7,305 bases of DNA from contig CAMLEX010000241.1 in assembly GCA_946479055.1 (NCBI GenBank), positions 1 through 7,305 on the forward strand, read 5' to 3'. Below the pieces are notes generated by a model. The model saw nothing but the letters and a program-made list of their open reading frames with translations, ran no database searches and was not told the origin of the DNA. This DNA comes from an uncultured Bacteroidota bacterium (GTDB lineage: Bacteria; Bacteroidota; Bacteroidia; Chitinophagales; Chitinophagaceae). This document shows, piece by piece, positions 2,222 through 6,941 of this stretch (position 1 is the first letter of the stretch; every line of letters starts with the position of its first letter). The position numbers and the translations under genes are program-made.

Positions 2222-3628
2222 TTATTTTTTTGGTGGTTCAACTTCTGTTGTATCTGTCGCCAGTGTTTTAACTACATATTTTCCTGAGTCTATACTCGTA
2301 GCAGGAAATGTTTTTTTCAAAATGATCCAGTCTTTATCGATCACCCCGGTATGATAGAGATACAAATTTTTCAAACTTTTTAATTTATTCAACTGAAGTA
2401 TTCCTTGTGCAGAAACTTTTGTACCCACCAAATTCAATGATTGCAATTGTTGCAACGATTGCAGTTTTGTCAATCCCTTGTCGGTGATATTGGTGTTTCT
2501 AAGGTTTAAACGTGTAAGTGTTGAAAGCTTTGCAATTTCATCCATTGCCTCATCGCTGATAGCAGCATTATCAAGTTTTAACCAAACTATTTGTTTCTTT
2601 AAAGGTTCCAGTAATTTCACTAATGTATCGGCGGCCGGACCTGCTGTAACAAAACTGATGGATAAATAATTACTGTTTTTTGCCACAGGGATCACTACCA
2701 CTCCCGCATCTTTTAAACGCTTAACACTGGCTTCATCAGGTTTTACCACGGGAACACCAGGTACATCTGTTATCGCATTTTCTAGATCTGAGGAACCGGA
2801 TTGCAATGCCAGCAAAACAGGTTTTATCTTTTCTGTCTGCGGCAGGTCTTTTACTTTCTTGTTGAAATCAGCGCCGGTATTGATCCACCAATGCAATAAA
2901 GAAATTTCGCCGGGTGTCAACTGTTTTTTTTCTTTTGGCGGCATATGATCTTCATCACTCAATGGTAGCAGCATTCGTTCAATCATTTCGCTTTCATCCG
3001 CTTTTCCGGCTTCAATGACCTTACCATCTTTTCCACCTTTTAAAATATATTCCTGCTGATCTAAGCGAAGTTTACCTTTTTGTTTATTGGCTCCATGACA
3101 GTTATAGCATTTTGCCTGCAACAATGGTTGCACCACATCAGCATACAAAGTTGCTTCCTGGATATTGGGAATAGGTTTCATGACTACTCCTTTTTCATCT
3201 TCACTGTTTAAGCCTTCAGTGAGATAATCCGAACCATGTGTTAATGATCCACCTAAATGACCTGTTATAGTTATAAGAACGGTAATGCCAAAAGAAAATA
3301 GACGGGCAGCTTTTTCTCCAATTGATAATTTATACAATAGGTATAATACTAACGAAGCAATTGCTACAAAAATTCCCATCCACTGATGACGGCCTACCAA
3401 TTGCCCATCATAATCACCACTAAGAGAAAGCATATAACCACTGATACAGGAAAGCGCAGCGCCTATTACTCCCCAAAAAAACATCACAGGAATAGCTGGT
3501 TGTAAAACAGTAAACCTGTTGTTAATAGTAAGGATCTGGAAGAAACAGGCCAATAGTAAAATACCAATGGGTAAATGAACAAGCACCGGGTGAAATCGAC
3601 CGATAAGATCAGGAATGGATAGAAGCAT
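2222..3628 (-). CDS. DUF2231 membrane / planctomycete-type cytochrome c / LRR protein
   Basis: 468 aa, ATG at 3628, no Shine-Dalgarno visible. Domains in order: four predicted membrane helices (about 15-35, 46-67, 84-101, 111-128) with RFHPVLVHLPIG at 11-22, typical of DUF2231; a c-type cytochrome domain of the planctomycete type (PSCyt1-like) at about 160-255, with heme motif CYNCH at 174-178, LRLD at 187-190 and a likely distal Met ligand M229 in HMPP; then leucine-rich repeats at about 347-445 (WLKLDNAAISDEAMDEIAKL, LTRLNLRNTNITDKGLTKL, LQSLNLVGTKVSAQGI). The C-terminus is a short charged tail. Inferred: anchored in the inner membrane with the heme domain and repeats in the periplasm, passing electrons from a periplasmic oxidation, the LRR part perhaps binding a partner. 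The substrate is unknown. The stop TAA is followed after 1 nt by the ATG of the GH95-like gene, so the two are an operon. Its 5' leader is occupied by the AGCT repeat array from 7 nt upstream of the ATG. Confidence 0.9.
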   Translation of the reverse strand: MLLSIPDLIGRFHPVLVHLPIGILLLACFFQILTINNRFTVLQPAIPVMFFWGVIGAALSCISGYMLSLSGDYDGQLVGRHQWMGIFVAIASLVLYLLYKLSIGEKAARLFSFGITVLITITGHLGGSLTHGSDYLTEGLNSEDEKGVVMKPIPNIQEATLYADVVQPLLQAKCYNCHGANKQKGKLRLDQQEYILKGGKDGKVIEAGKADESEMIERMLLPLSDEDHMPPKEKKQLTPGEISLLHWWINTGADFNKKVKDLPQTEKIKPVLLALQSGSSDLENAITDVPGVPVVKPDEASVKRLKDAGVVVIPVAKNSNYLSISFVTAGPAADTLVKLLEPLKKQIVWLKLDNAAISDEAMDEIAKLSTLTRLNLRNTNITDKGLTKLQSLQQLQSLNLVGTKVSAQGILQLNKLKSLKNLYLYHTGVIDKDWIILKKTFPATSIDSGKYVVKTLATDTTEVEPPKK

Positions 3629-3635
3629 AATGTGA

Positions 3636-3670
3636 AAGCTATGAGCTTTGAGCTGCGAGCTATGAAACTT
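3636..3670 (+). repeat. Left 7-nt AGCT repeat array (5 units, GAGCTNN)
   Basis: Read on the plus strand, five consecutive 7-nt units: AAGCTAT, GAGCTTT, GAGCTGC, GAGCTAT and degenerate GAAACTT. The first units also form a perfect 6-bp hairpin (AAAGCT-ATG-AGCTTT, 3635-3649). It is the mirror of the array at 4088-4122, with a shared perfect 13-nt inverted match TGAGCTGCGAGCT (3649-3661 against 4090-4102). It lies between the cytochrome gene's start codon and the end of the four-helix-bundle gene. Confidence 0.85.
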
Positions 3671-3689
3671 ACAGATTCAAAGAGAGTTT

Positions 3690-4043
3690 TTATTTATTAA
3701 GTTTAGTCATAAAGCTTATAAGCATCTTTTGTTCTTCATCAATACCTTTCAGCATTTCATTCCTCAGTCCTCTCTCTCCATAATTTACAGCTTCAGCGAT
3801 TAATAATTGGGTTTCTAATTCAAATGTTGAGCCTAATGAAATTTCAATAAGACGATTATAGTCTTTTTCGCTGCTTCTGCTACTTCCTTCAGCTATATTA
3901 GAAGGAAAGGAAATGGCAGCTTTTGTAATCTGGGAAGAGATGCCATATTTTTCTTCTCTTGGAAAGGTAGAAATGAGCTTAAAAGAATTAACTGCAATTT
4001 GAAATCCTTTCTGCCAGATTTTTAGTTCTTTAAAATTTCTCAT
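3690..4043 (-). CDS. Four-helix-bundle protein (23S rRNA intervening-sequence / S23 type)
   Basis: 117 aa, ATG at 4043. The sequence carries the family signature of PF05635-type proteins: FKELKIWQKG at 4-13, FPREEKYGISSQITKAAISF from 27, SNIAEGSSR at 48-56, and LGSTFELETQL at 70-80. The length is typical, so the gene looks intact. Known: this family was first seen inside intervening sequences of 23S rRNA genes; orphan copies are very common in Bacteroidota, and the fold is shared with Avd of diversity-generating retroelements, which binds nucleic acid and a reverse transcriptase. The function of orphan copies is not established. No rRNA or reverse transcriptase is seen here. It is unrelated by function to its operon neighbours and sits between inverted AGCT arrays. 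A weak Bacteroidota-type promoter may lie upstream on the minus strand (TTTG near 4089-4086, then TACACTTC near 4064-4057 after 21 nt), which would let it be expressed alone; that is uncertain. Confidence 0.9.
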   Translation of the reverse strand: MRNFKELKIWQKGFQIAVNSFKLISTFPREEKYGISSQITKAAISFPSNIAEGSSRSSEKDYNRLIEISLGSTFELETQLLIAEAVNYGERGLRNEMLKGIDEEQKMLISFMTKLNK

Positions 4044-4087
4044 GAATAAAGTTTTCGAAGTGTAATAATTACGGTTTTAAACGACCA

Positions 4088-4122
4088 AAAGCTCGCAGCT
4101 CATAACTCAAGGGTCACAGCTA
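4088..4122 (-). repeat. Right 7-nt AGCT repeat array (5 units, GAGCTNN on minus strand)
   Basis: Read on the minus strand from 4122 to 4088: TAGCTGT, GACCCTT, GAGTTAT, GAGCTGC, GAGCTTT. The orientation is opposite to the array at 3636-3670, with a perfect 13-nt inverted match. The outermost unit begins with the TAG stop codon of the TIM-barrel gene. The two middle-outer units are the most degenerate. Confidence 0.85.
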
Positions 4123-5052
4123 CACTCCATATCTTTTTCTAAGCAATTTCATCATATGCACATTGATAGCCCATTGATCCGCTACAGGCTGTTTGGTATA
4201 TGGCAATGTCGGCATATAGTCGGGCGGGCCAAATTCGGTAAGGATCGTCATCCGTTCTCCGTTCTTCTTTTTTCTTTCAGCTACTTTATCCCACCAATCG
4301 AAATGTTGTTTTACTGCGGCTTCCCATTCCGGTGCACGAGGATCGTTTACCTGCGGCCCTTCCGGGTGACCGATACGGGCATGAATATGTTCTGTTCTTT
4401 CCAATGCCATGTCGACCGTTTCTTTCTGATCGGCTAACATACTCTCGTGTACATTGCACCAATGAGATACATCGAAAGTGAGTTTTAACTGCGGATGTTT
4501 CTCCATGTGCTGCCTTGTTACATGCGCCGCAAACATAATCCTTGACCTATGTGTTTCATGACAAATAGTAATACCGGTTTCTTTTGAAAGCTGCGTGGTA
4601 TGATCGATGAAGGATTTGTTTTGCTCAAAGCTCAAATGATCCCTTCCTGAATGGCAATTAATATAAAGTGGTTTTTGAAACTTATTAGTTGCAGCCTCTG
4701 TTGTCACTTTTTTAAAAAATTCAAGGTGTTCTTTCCAGTCAGGTTGGTAACCGCCACACAAGAAACCAACATCCAATGAATGCTTTTTCAAAGCTGCAAA
4801 TAATTCCTGTTGCCCACTTGCATCCCCGGGCCACCATATTTCCATTCCATCATAACCTTCTTTTTTTGCTGCGGCGCAAAATTGATCGGTTGTACCTTCA
4901 AAGCCCCAGTTGGTGGCCAATATTTTTAATTCAAAGTTTTTATTCACGATGGCAGATTTATATGGTGTTGCAAAAATGTCTAATGAAGAAAATAATAAGG
5001 CAGTGGTTGCAGTAGCAGTTGTTTGAAGAAAATTTCTCCTGTTTTGATTCAT
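4120..5052 (-). CDS. Exported TIM-barrel protein, sugar phosphate isomerase/epimerase family
   Basis: 310 aa from the ATG at 5052, chosen over an in-frame TTG at 5061 because MNQNRRNFLQTT is a standard leader start. R5-R6 followed by NFLQ is a twin-arginine motif, with a hydrophobic stretch to about residue 28, so export by Tat to the periplasm is likely. The rest is a xylose-isomerase-like / AP endonuclease 2-type TIM barrel: YDGMEIWWPGD from 67, YINCHSG from 130, ICHETHRSR from 163, LTFDVSHW from 191, HIHARIGHPEG from 222 and LTEFGPPDY from 271. Expected metal ligands are E166, D194, H224 and E273; all are present, so it is probably an active metalloenzyme. Known: close relatives act as sugar isomerases, epimerases or 3-keto-sugar hydratases; the substrate cannot be told from sequence. 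Inferred: acts on sugars released by the neighbouring hydrolase. Separated from the DUF1501 gene by 293 bp of repeats and from the cytochrome gene by the inserted cassette. Confidence 0.9.
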   Translation of the reverse strand: MNQNRRNFLQTTATATTALLFSSLDIFATPYKSAIVNKNFELKILATNWGFEGTTDQFCAAAKKEGYDGMEIWWPGDASGQQELFAALKKHSLDVGFLCGGYQPDWKEHLEFFKKVTTEAATNKFQKPLYINCHSGRDHLSFEQNKSFIDHTTQLSKETGITICHETHRSRIMFAAHVTRQHMEKHPQLKLTFDVSHWCNVHESMLADQKETVDMALERTEHIHARIGHPEGPQVNDPRAPEWEAAVKQHFDWWDKVAERKKKNGERMTILTEFGPPDYMPTLPYTKQPVADQWAINVHMMKLLRKRYGV

Positions 5053-5094
5053 AAGGGACAATAGAATTAATATAATTTAAGTTCTTCTATAATA

Positions 5095-5130
5095 TTGTTG
5101 AGTAGCGAACAGAACCCTGAAGAGTGCGAC
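5095..5130 (+). repeat. Dispersed intergenic repeat, partial copy A
   Basis: 36 bp that match the reverse complement of 6906-6941 at 32 of 36 positions, and the first 25 bases of the core (5097-5121) match copy B (5178-5202) at 20 of 25, all five differences being transitions. Homology stops abruptly after 5130, so this is a truncated copy. It lies in the 293-bp gap between the DUF1501 and TIM-barrel genes, 81 bp before copy B in the same orientation. Confidence 0.8.
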
Positions 5131-5345: not shown

Positions 5346-6854
5346 TCAGACAATTATATCCTGTATCACTTTACCCGCTACATCCGTCAATCGGAACGGT
5401 CTTCCCTGGAACGGATACGTGAACTCCTCATGATTAAACCCTAACTGATTCAATATAGTCGCCTGGATATCATGTGCATCAACTTTACCACTGACAGCGG
5501 TATAACCTATCTTATCAGTTTCGCCATGTGTATATCCCTTTTTAATACCACCACCCGCCATCCAGATAGTGAATGCTTCGGTGTGATGATCTCTACCTTT
5601 GAATGGATTCTGCACACCATTACGATTTTCCATCATCGGCGTACGGCCAAACTCAGCTCCCCATACCACCAATGTTTCTTCCAGCAGACCTCTTTGTTTC
5701 AGATCAAGCAGCAAAGCGGTAACTGGTTTATCAACACTCCGGTATTTATTAATGATACCAACATTCAATGCGTTGCTGGCACTATCACCATGTGCATCCC
5801 ATCCCCAGTCGAACAACTGCACATAGCGTACACCTTTTTCTACCAGTTTTCTTGCCAATAAAACGTTGTTAGCAAAACATGCTTTACCCGGTTTTGTACC
5901 ATACATTTCGTGAATATATTCCGGCTCATCATTAATGTTCATTACTTCCGGCGCTGTTATCTGCATCCGGTAGGCCATTTCATATTGTGAGATGCGAGAT
6001 AAAATTTCGGGATCATTATATTCTTCATATTCCTGCTGGTTGGCTTTATTGATTGCATCAATGGATGCTTTGCGCAGGTTGCGGCTCATACCATCGGGAT
6101 CATTGATAAATAAAACAGGGTCGCCTTCGCTACGGCATTGCACACCCTGGTACACCGAAGGCAAAAATCCACTGCCCCAAACACTCTTACCCGCATCCGG
6201 AAAACTGCCACCGCTTGTCAGTACAACAAAGCCCGGGAGATTTTGATTTTCTGTTCCTAAACCATAGGTGACCCAACTACCCATACTTGGTCTTCCCAAT
6301 CTTGGAGCACCAGTATGCATTAATAATTGTGCAGGCGCATGATTGAACTGGTCTGTTGTTACCGCTTTTAAAAAAGTTATTTCATCTGCAACAGTAGATA
6401 AGTGCGGCAGGTTCTCACTTATCCAGGCGCCGCTTTGTCCACGTTGTGAAAATTTTGCCTGTGGCCCCAGCATTTTTGGCACACCCCTGATAAAAGCGAA
6501 TTGTTTTCCTTCCAGAAAAGATTGAGGACAATCTTGTCCATCCATTTTAGCCAACTCCGGTTTGTAATCAAACAATTCAAATTGTGATGGCGCACCAGCC
6601 ATATGCAGGTAAATCACACTTCTTGCTTTGCCAACAAATGGCGGCGACTTTGGTAATAATGGATGCGCCGGATCAAATGTTATAGATGCAGGAGCAGTCG
6701 ATCCTCTGCCACAACTGCCCAGCAAGGAGCCCATTGCCAATGCACCCAATCCCATCGCACTTTCTTTTAAAAAATGCCGGCGTGTATGCATGCGCCTCAC
6801 TGCGTCTTCCGCCTCTTTCAGCAAACGCTGATCATGCAATTCTTTTTGTGTCAT
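5346..6854 (-). CDS. DUF1501 domain protein, Tat-exported, alkaline-phosphatase-like fold
   Basis: 502 aa, ATG at 6854, no Shine-Dalgarno. N-terminal features: a 24-residue polar stretch, then TRRHFLKESAMG (24-35), a twin-arginine motif with hydrophobic segment, and LGSC at 45-48 that could serve as a lipobox, so it may be a Tat-exported lipoprotein. The DUF1501 core runs from about 77 (ARSVIYLHMAGAPSQFELFD) to the end, with DWGWDAHGD at 349-357, WGAEFGRTP at 398-406, GRDHH at 420-424 and DAHDIQATILNQLG at 459-472. These Asp/His/Glu motifs sit where the alkaline-phosphatase superfamily binds metal. Length is typical and nothing is broken. Known: DUF1501 genes usually sit next to a DUF1549/DUF1553 cytochrome gene in planctomycetes, verrucomicrobia and Bacteroidota; biochemical function is not settled. 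Here no such partner lies within 451 bp upstream. The gene is flanked by inverted copies of a 64-bp repeat. Probably its own transcript. Confidence 0.93.
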   Translation of the reverse strand: MTQKELHDQRLLKEAEDAVRRMHTRRHFLKESAMGLGALAMGSLLGSCGRGSTAPASITFDPAHPLLPKSPPFVGKARSVIYLHMAGAPSQFELFDYKPELAKMDGQDCPQSFLEGKQFAFIRGVPKMLGPQAKFSQRGQSGAWISENLPHLSTVADEITFLKAVTTDQFNHAPAQLLMHTGAPRLGRPSMGSWVTYGLGTENQNLPGFVVLTSGGSFPDAGKSVWGSGFLPSVYQGVQCRSEGDPVLFINDPDGMSRNLRKASIDAINKANQQEYEEYNDPEILSRISQYEMAYRMQITAPEVMNINDEPEYIHEMYGTKPGKACFANNVLLARKLVEKGVRYVQLFDWGWDAHGDSASNALNVGIINKYRSVDKPVTALLLDLKQRGLLEETLVVWGAEFGRTPMMENRNGVQNPFKGRDHHTEAFTIWMAGGGIKKGYTHGETDKIGYTAVSGKVDAHDIQATILNQLGFNHEEFTYPFQGRPFRLTDVAGKVIQDIIV

Positions 6855-6877: not shown

Positions 6878-6941
6878 CTGTAGTACTACTTTCATCGTCT
6901 GTTGCGTCGCACTTTTCATCGTTCTGTTCGCTATTCAACAA
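6878..6941 (-). repeat. Dispersed intergenic repeat, full copy C (64 bp)
   Basis: On the minus strand it aligns without a gap to copy B (5176-5239) at 47 of 64 positions and, over its first 36 bases, to copy A at 32 of 36. It starts 23 bp upstream of the DUF1501 start codon, so it occupies the place where a promoter or 5' leader would be. I see no clear Bacteroidota -7/-33 promoter between it and the ATG. Confidence 0.8.

Follow-up and report, generated by a model that had tools for sequence, protein, structure and literature searches.

The window, a 7,305-nt stretch of DNA from an uncultured bacterium of the Chitinophagaceae, contains five long open reading frames that Pfam assigns to GH95, PSCyt1, an IVP/S23 four-helix-bundle protein (IVP hereafter), a TIM barrel, and DUF1501. 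The IVP gene occupies the spacer between two genes of one operon and is enclosed by two inverted arrays of short repeats. The features are as follows:

3629..4119, minus strand: the whole cassette, a 491-nt spacer separating two operon genes
3690..4043, minus strand: IVP/S23 four-helix-bundle gene, 117 aa (PF05635, E 9.7e-31; TIGR02436, 'four helix bundle protein')
3637..3665, unstranded: 3'-side array arm, C-rich on the strand of the gene, four exact AGCTNNG units with a 7-nt period
4090..4122, unstranded: 5'-side array arm, G-rich on the strand of the gene, three exact and two degenerate units
4120..5061, minus strand: upstream operon gene, xylose-isomerase-like TIM barrel (PF01261), also a neighbour in relatives
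2222..3628, minus strand: downstream operon gene with a PSCyt1 domain, a neighbour in relatives as well
5346..6854, minus strand: DUF1501 gene, upstream in the shared gene order (from Pfam and relatives)

On the plus strand, AGCT occurs in the left arm at 3637, 3644, 3651, and 3658 (TRF reports the row 3637-3665), and in the right arm at 4090, 4097, and 4118, with two degenerate units in between. The final AGCT of the 5'-side arm (4118-4121) overlaps the TAG stop codon of the upstream gene (4120-4122). The original prediction described two arrays of five GAGCTNN units each; the inverted 7-nt arrays are present as described, but the left one holds four exact units and the right one only three exact units out of five. 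The perfect 13-nt core that it attributed to both arrays was recovered as TGAGCTGCGAGCT at 3649-3661, with its reverse complement at 4090-4102. An inverted-repeat search delimited the arms as 3642-3661 and 4090-4109 (20 nt, 90% complementary); the inverted-repeat score of the flanks is 15.0.

For the window IVP, Pfam returned only PF05635, with no catalytic or nuclease domain, and some other enzyme would have to perform the chemistry of any movement. The protein has structural kin in PDB entries 2gsc (E 1.1e-18) and 2rld (E 0.0089), and IVPs at the same site in relatives are 82%, 75%, and 74% identical to it. No relative of it was confirmed in viral contigs, and Rfam gave no match above gathering at window positions 3500-4250. 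In the downstream gene, matches to DUF2231 and to leucine-rich repeats fall below curated cut-offs. A second inverted pair (5095-5130 and 6906-6941; 36 nt, 89% complementary) lies in the spacers flanking the DUF1501 gene and is perhaps another dispersed repeat family. The first 47 nt of the window resemble an Illumina sequencing adapter; if so, the last residues of the GH95 reading frame at the contig end would be adapter and not gene.

Framed IVP genes and dispersed arrays

The flanks of other IVP genes were surveyed using relatives. From 244 deduplicated genes in 247 sequences, 207 IVPs of 95-220 aa were retained, the window included, while genes outside this length or with flanks shorter than 200 nt were left out; as controls we used 2620 windows of equal geometry taken from these sequences, none of them closer than 400 nt to an IVP hit. 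An inverted-repeat score of at least 15, taken as the best between the 200-nt flanks, was reached by 126 of 207 IVPs and by 3 of 2620 controls. Periodicity of 7 nt in both flanks was found for 81 IVPs and 2 controls, periodicity of 8 nt for 21 IVPs and 5 controls, and any other period around IVPs occurred 0 to 5 times, the multiple 14 excepted. Some IVPs have an array without an inverted repeat (38/207) or an inverted repeat without an array (23/207), and 30 of 207 have neither an inverted repeat (score at least 14) nor a periodic array (score at least 10). The arrays have a median length of about 4.4 units. Read on the coding strand, 103 of 119 upstream arrays are G-rich and 85 of 108 downstream arrays are C-rich. 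In a sample of 11 of 27 cyanobacterial plasmid records, 7 of 11 IVPs scored at least 15 for inverted repeats and all 11 had a 7-nt array (score at least 10) on at least one side. The original prediction proposed that arrays be sought around other orphan PF05635 genes, and 126 of 207 copies do carry them. The array-framed IVP cassette is real and general, and the window copy belongs to a large family in which an IVP/S23 gene is bracketed by two inverted arrays, each of about 4-5 units; the period is most commonly 7 nt, with 8 nt in some lineages and rarely 9 nt.

PF05635 is frequent in the sampled groups and often multicopy. In four taxonomic draws it was present in 45/60, 40/41, 35/59, and 25/59 genomes, and 3 to 16 matches per genome were counted in 10 genomes that had been reached via loci chosen for holding an IVP, as against none in 14 control genomes.

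Arrays also occur away from IVP genes. The AGCT pattern was counted in 16 genomes that were chosen and not drawn at random, one array giving several hits. The counts (reversed control in brackets) were 455 (39) in G251, 239 (13) in G371, 207 (21) in G459, 137 (4) in G380, 70 (0) in G065, 40 (0) in G017, and 18 (0) in G326, and 0 to 8 hits were found in the other nine. Where an IVP reaches 60% identity to that of the window, hits were present in 7/7 genomes, and where none does, in 4/9, again among chosen genomes. In three genomes with 70-207 hits the best IVP is at most 40% identical to that of the window, and one of these three, G065, carries a further IVP whose arm is AGCT-like.

In contiguous samples of G065, G251, and G037, arrays of 7 or 8 nt are the main tandem repeats of spacers, with 92 intergenic arrays in 200 kb, 22 in 400 kb, and 10 in 200 kb, respectively, and an inverted partner lies within 700 nt for 26/92, 3/22, and 8/10 of them. 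Within spacers of co-directional genes, 55 arrays point inward like cassette arms, that is, G-rich nearer the stop and C-rich nearer the start, and 21 are placed otherwise. We compared the arms of IVPs scoring at least 14 with arrays more than 1 kb from any IVP; one of the four IVPs of G251 (L384) had no such arm. In G065, 7/7 own arms match dispersed arrays (43/96 arrays covered), compared with 49/163 foreign arms, and in G251 the figures are 3/3 own arms (15/27 covered) and 12/167 foreign arms. In G037 only 2/10 own arms match (3/8 covered), with 4/160 foreign arms. Some of the foreign arms derive from relatives that share the IVP lineage, such as the G459 arms in G251.

Occupancy of single spacers and copies at unrelated sites

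Genes for DUF1501, TIM barrel, and PSCyt1 follow one another repeatedly in the bacterial family, and a homologue of the TIM barrel gene was found in 105 of 294 genomes. We surveyed the 30 best loci of the 105 genomes with a match, leaving out two (L253 and L259) with no PSCyt1 neighbour. The TIM barrel and PSCyt1 genes are adjacent in 29 rows including the window, which comprise 5 cassettes (the window, L247, L252, L255, and L275), 1 decayed cassette (L268), 4 pairs of inverted arrays without a gene (L260, L262, L270, and L271), and 19 others. Nine of the latter have spacers of at most 34 nt, among them L272, in which the two reading frames overlap as aligned, and ten have spacers of 57-323 nt, including one with a different 7-nt array (L265) and one with a short AGCT-like piece (L257). 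Since nine of the 24 rows without an intact IVP have a spacer of at most 34 nt, the cassette separates genes that are otherwise adjacent, in agreement with the earlier view of the gene as an interruption of a contiguous operon, and the empty-site comparison called for at the outset found the cassette at 5 of 29 rows, hence not fixed. The accompanying term 'non-autonomous' fits the array-only copies and is here limited to them. In a tree of the TIM proteins the states of the site are as scattered as shuffled labels, and a single clade for the window-site IVPs, as one insertion followed by losses would give, is compatible with the data (p-AU 0.09).

The spacer between purK and purE was surveyed in the same way within one genus. 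Among 58 matching genomes the 30 best loci were read, L175 was added, and one locus (L425) with no purK neighbour was left out. The 30 rows comprise 8 cassettes, 4 array-only hairpins of various units (L420, L426, L432, and L434), 2 without a spacer (L433 and L435), and 16 others, which have other repeats, another insert, or a plain spacer. Seven of the IVP rows have the unit GTTCATR and one, L175, has GTCATTR. The L175 IVP is 31-38% identical to those at the same site in L177, L052, and L147, and 75% identical to that of L182 elsewhere, which speaks for an independent insertion at purK-purE. Among the other rows, a palindromic repeat, GTCATTGCGAGG..., replaces the cassette in L413, L415-L417, L422, L423, and L428, and a different, coding-looking insert of 545-677 nt is found in L419, L421, L427, L430, and L431. 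Such variety suggests an insertion hot spot between purK and purE. Inspection by eye revealed no target-site duplication at either site, but the spacers of relatives have diverged too far for a clear view.

Copies at unrelated sites match from array to array. The contigs L219 and L243 belong to one genome and share a 453-nt stretch of 87% identity that begins 45 nt before the start codon and ends 51 nt after the stop codon; the remaining matches are confined to the arrays. Likewise, L190 and L193 from different genomes have an array-bounded match of 84%, and such matches within genomes were found for L075/L076 (83%), L027/L036 (73%), and L183/L186 (70%). Mobility as an array-bounded unit is well supported by these alignments, and the proposal of an array-delimited mobile cassette is borne out by a spacer that is occupied, decayed, array-only, or empty in relatives and by copies at unrelated sites whose similarity ends in the arrays. 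Ratios of dN/dS for the IVP are 0.04-0.25 in 9 of 11 pairs, two further pairs being saturated; judged by these ratios, the protein is under purifying selection.

Repeat unit and protein lineage

The repeat units vary by locus and include GGTNATG, GTTTCNG, GTATCAA, TTAGCNN, GAGCTNN, and many more. The IVP of L001, 68% identical to that of the window, has an arm of the TTAGCNN type. AGCT had been put forward as a sequence that the bundle protein possibly recognises, a view that does not extend to the family, where the 7- or 8-nt unit is particular to the IVP lineage. Among 126 IVPs, units match across loci in all 12 pairs above 80% protein identity and in 81% of the 43 pairs with 65-80%; the share falls to 14% (73 pairs) at 55-65% identity and to 0-2% of those sampled below 55% (a sample of 400 pairs in the four lowest identity classes). 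A second comparison used 149 of 220 IVPs (score at least 14) at loci with at least 550 nt on each side and was split by site. At unrelated sites a unit is common to 18/21 pairs at 70% amino acid identity or more, 25/62 at 60-70%, and 12/258 at 50-60%, and at the same site to 28/30, 12/18, and 6/36 pairs, respectively. Because similar IVPs at unrelated sites share a unit, unit and protein are co-inherited even when the cassette lies elsewhere, while both drift. An exception is the pair L175/L182, whose IVPs are 75% identical while their units differ (7-nt GTCATTR at purK-purE and an 8-nt unit in L182). On these comparisons the link of unit to protein lineage is well supported.

To our knowledge, PF05635 has no established function. 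A testable rule, one protein lineage to one repeat unit, ties this orphan family to dispersed heptamers, and the link may explain both the orphan protein and the repeats. Many naturally varied pairs of protein and repeat are available for working out the recognition. In the open-licence literature, we found no report that ties S23/IVP to dispersed heptamers.

Known systems and competing explanations

The intervening sequence in the 23S rRNA gene of Coxiella burnetii, which carries an S23 reading frame and has been termed a selfish element, has three, or in some strains two, tandem heptamers (GACAGAT) immediately ahead of the S23 start codon, together with a 28-bp terminal stem, and its S23 reading frame is described as undergoing reductive evolution (PMC4990558, accessible portion). 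The window cassette resembles it in holding an S23/IVP reading frame of PF05635, which is optional in intervening sequences, and in having complementary ends able to form a stem; it differs in lying between protein genes and not inside 23S rRNA. The Coxiella element thus has the plan of the cassette, in an rRNA gene. The accessible portion of that report does not link the heptamers to the S23 protein or to dispersed arrays, as is done here. Among the fetched loci, four 15-nt 23S motifs gave no exact match that would place an IVP inside 23S rRNA. Intervening sequences with S23 would gain relatives outside rRNA.

A second parallel is provided by the RAYT genes, each of which encodes a tyrosine transposase and lies between inverted copies of a palindromic repeat, the REP. 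RAYTs co-evolve with their REPs, whose number they track, and gene-free repeats are non-autonomous derivatives (PMC2817692). Similarly, the IVP gene lies between two inverted repeat copies (in the window and for 126/207 IVPs), the repeat is dispersed in host genomes (in relatives, weakly in G037), and repeat and IVP co-evolve. Since gene-free copies persist in spacers as array hairpins or single arms, the layout is like that of RAYT and REP. The IVP has PF05635 only and no Y1 tyrosine transposase, and its arms, unlike REPs, are tandem arrays of 7-8 nt that are often non-palindromic and have, by eye, no GTAG-type head. Two other systems share single traits. MITEs are short, have inverted ends and gene-free copies, and lie in spacers; the cassette, in contrast, ends in tandem arrays whose letters differ per lineage and has no transposase. 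Avd of diversity-generating retroelements is a four-helix bundle, as is the IVP, and forms a ring of five, but no reverse transcriptase was found by Pfam among the five long reading frames of the window.

Dispersed heptamers have been recorded without an established cause as far as the accessible parts of two reports go (PMC4692102, PMC4679880), namely GGGAATC in Xanthomonas and GGGGA(C/T)T in Nostoc (PMC4692102), and TAACTGA in Beggiatoaceae, cyanobacteria, and Bacteroidota (PMC4679880). Those of Xanthomonas mostly come about four per array, are mostly intergenic and often in convergent pairs, and are nearly always nearer the 5' neighbour gene (PMC4692102, same parts). The arrays described here share the 7-nt unit with these families and, as far as the same parts describe Xanthomonas, array size and placement as well. 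The terms 'four helix', 'S23', and 'intervening (sequence)' are absent from the available texts of both reports, and Xanthomonas campestris encodes an IVP (PDB 2gsc, XCC0516). Among 285 IVPs, none was flanked by pairs of GGGAATC, GGGGACT, or GGGGATT, and TAACTGA-like pairs flanked five, of which L319 had them on both sides. In the L319 genome the TAACTGA pattern gave 2 hits against 30 for the reversed control, and in three other genomes 1, 2, and 1 hits. With this pair search and these counts, a link of the present IVPs to the published units was not established.

In our view the window probably carries a single copy of a small, widespread mobile cassette with the layout of RAYT and REP, a protein that is not a transposase, and kinship to 23S rRNA intervening sequences. 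We infer that the IVP binds or moves its unit. PDB entries 2gsc and 2rld contain five chains each, presumably a ring, and the match between ring size and the 4-5 units of an array is suggestive only; Q38, S45, A51, E52, R56, and E75 are invariant in 14 aligned IVPs. In the reading that we favour, the IVP, probably as a ring of five, would recognise its own array on DNA, perhaps with about one unit per subunit, and through this recognition, with a host or other enzyme, array-bounded segments would be copied into spacers. Sense insertions in operons may then be kept because the cassette is read from the promoter of the operon, and 23S rRNA intervening sequences with S23 would be a branch of the same element residing in rRNA genes. 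More tentatively, and in our opinion with somewhat less than an even chance of being right, S23/IVP could be the specificity protein of a new mobile system, in which a five-membered helical ring reads a lineage-specific tandem unit of 7-8 nt and drives the copying of any array-framed segment. The dispersed heptamers in Bacteroidota and in cyanobacteria, and possibly those in Xanthomonas and Beggiatoaceae too, would thereby be explained, with S23-bearing rRNA intervening sequences as the rRNA-inserted branch.

Both neighbours were read for 128 of the 130 IVPs with the highest inverted-repeat scores; of these 128, 105 run in the same direction as both neighbours and 6 run against both. Such a ratio is far from even for an inserted element, but the excess over ordinary genes is moderate, as control gene triplets gave 138 and 23 of 251 (82% versus 55% co-directional). 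The neighbour pairs include, to judge from their sequences, purK-purE, metH-metF, sdhA-sdhB, argC-argD, and pyrR-pyrB. On cyanobacterial plasmids, an IVP gene flanked by long 7-nt arrays is found in a CRISPR operon, where it separates cas6 from cas4 (L397 and L399), and in L396 the plasmid copy is antisense to the two ribonucleotide reductase genes of one operon between which it lies.

The orientation bias would also suit a regulator acting on RNA, in which the IVP ring binds the units in mRNA, or RNase III cuts the paired arms, so that the cassette is a post-transcriptional switch of its operon and the dispersed arrays are its regulon. TRAP, which binds its triplet array in mRNA, offers a parallel. 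Purifying selection on the IVP is compatible with such a role, and the Coxiella intervening sequence is cut by RNase III at the start of the first heptamer (PMC4990558, accessible portion). In predicted folds, at least half of the left arm pairs with the right arm in 46 of 60 transcripts sampled from 148 eligible ones, but such pairing would be expected of any inverted repeat. Arms maintained for pairing in RNA would be expected to favour G-U among their mismatches, but no such bias was seen (136 versus 123, p 0.46, 165 loci), which favours recognition of the unit on DNA, and the window transcript folds with a z of only -1.57, with 6 of 100 shuffles as good. On these two results the RNA hairpin, which the original prediction had also considered as a target, was rejected as a selected feature. 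It would also be odd for the regulator of a given operon that the same spacer is empty, array-only, or occupied by an unrelated unit in relatives. For these reasons we regard regulation through RNA as unlikely.

Alternatively, the repeats might be passive, with arrays that arise by replication slippage or recombination and spread by themselves, and IVP genes that are framed only as passengers recombining between arrays. Gene-free arrays are indeed more numerous than IVPs (200 kb of G065 contain 92 intergenic arrays, and the whole genome has 7 IVP matches), and the three genomes rich in AGCT arrays without a close relative of the window IVP would be accounted for. Passengers, however, would not retain one unit per protein lineage at unrelated sites, nor be under purifying selection; framing is rare away from IVPs (3/2620 windows), and periods besides 7-9 nt and their multiples are rare around them. 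This explanation is therefore quite improbable. Chance, in the form of a plain spacer in which AGCT happens to recur on both sides of an orphan gene, can be dismissed, as the survey (126/207 IVPs versus 3/2620 controls) refutes it. AGCT is self-complementary and gains some inverted matches for free, but this does not hold for many other units.

Two minor observations concern the arrays themselves. Between 1.0 and 1.4 Mb of G251 (L337-L356), eight intergenic tandem segments have a period of 11 and lie outside the 7/8-nt system, and near position 1500 of L298 an AGCT array lies within an open reading frame and not in a spacer.
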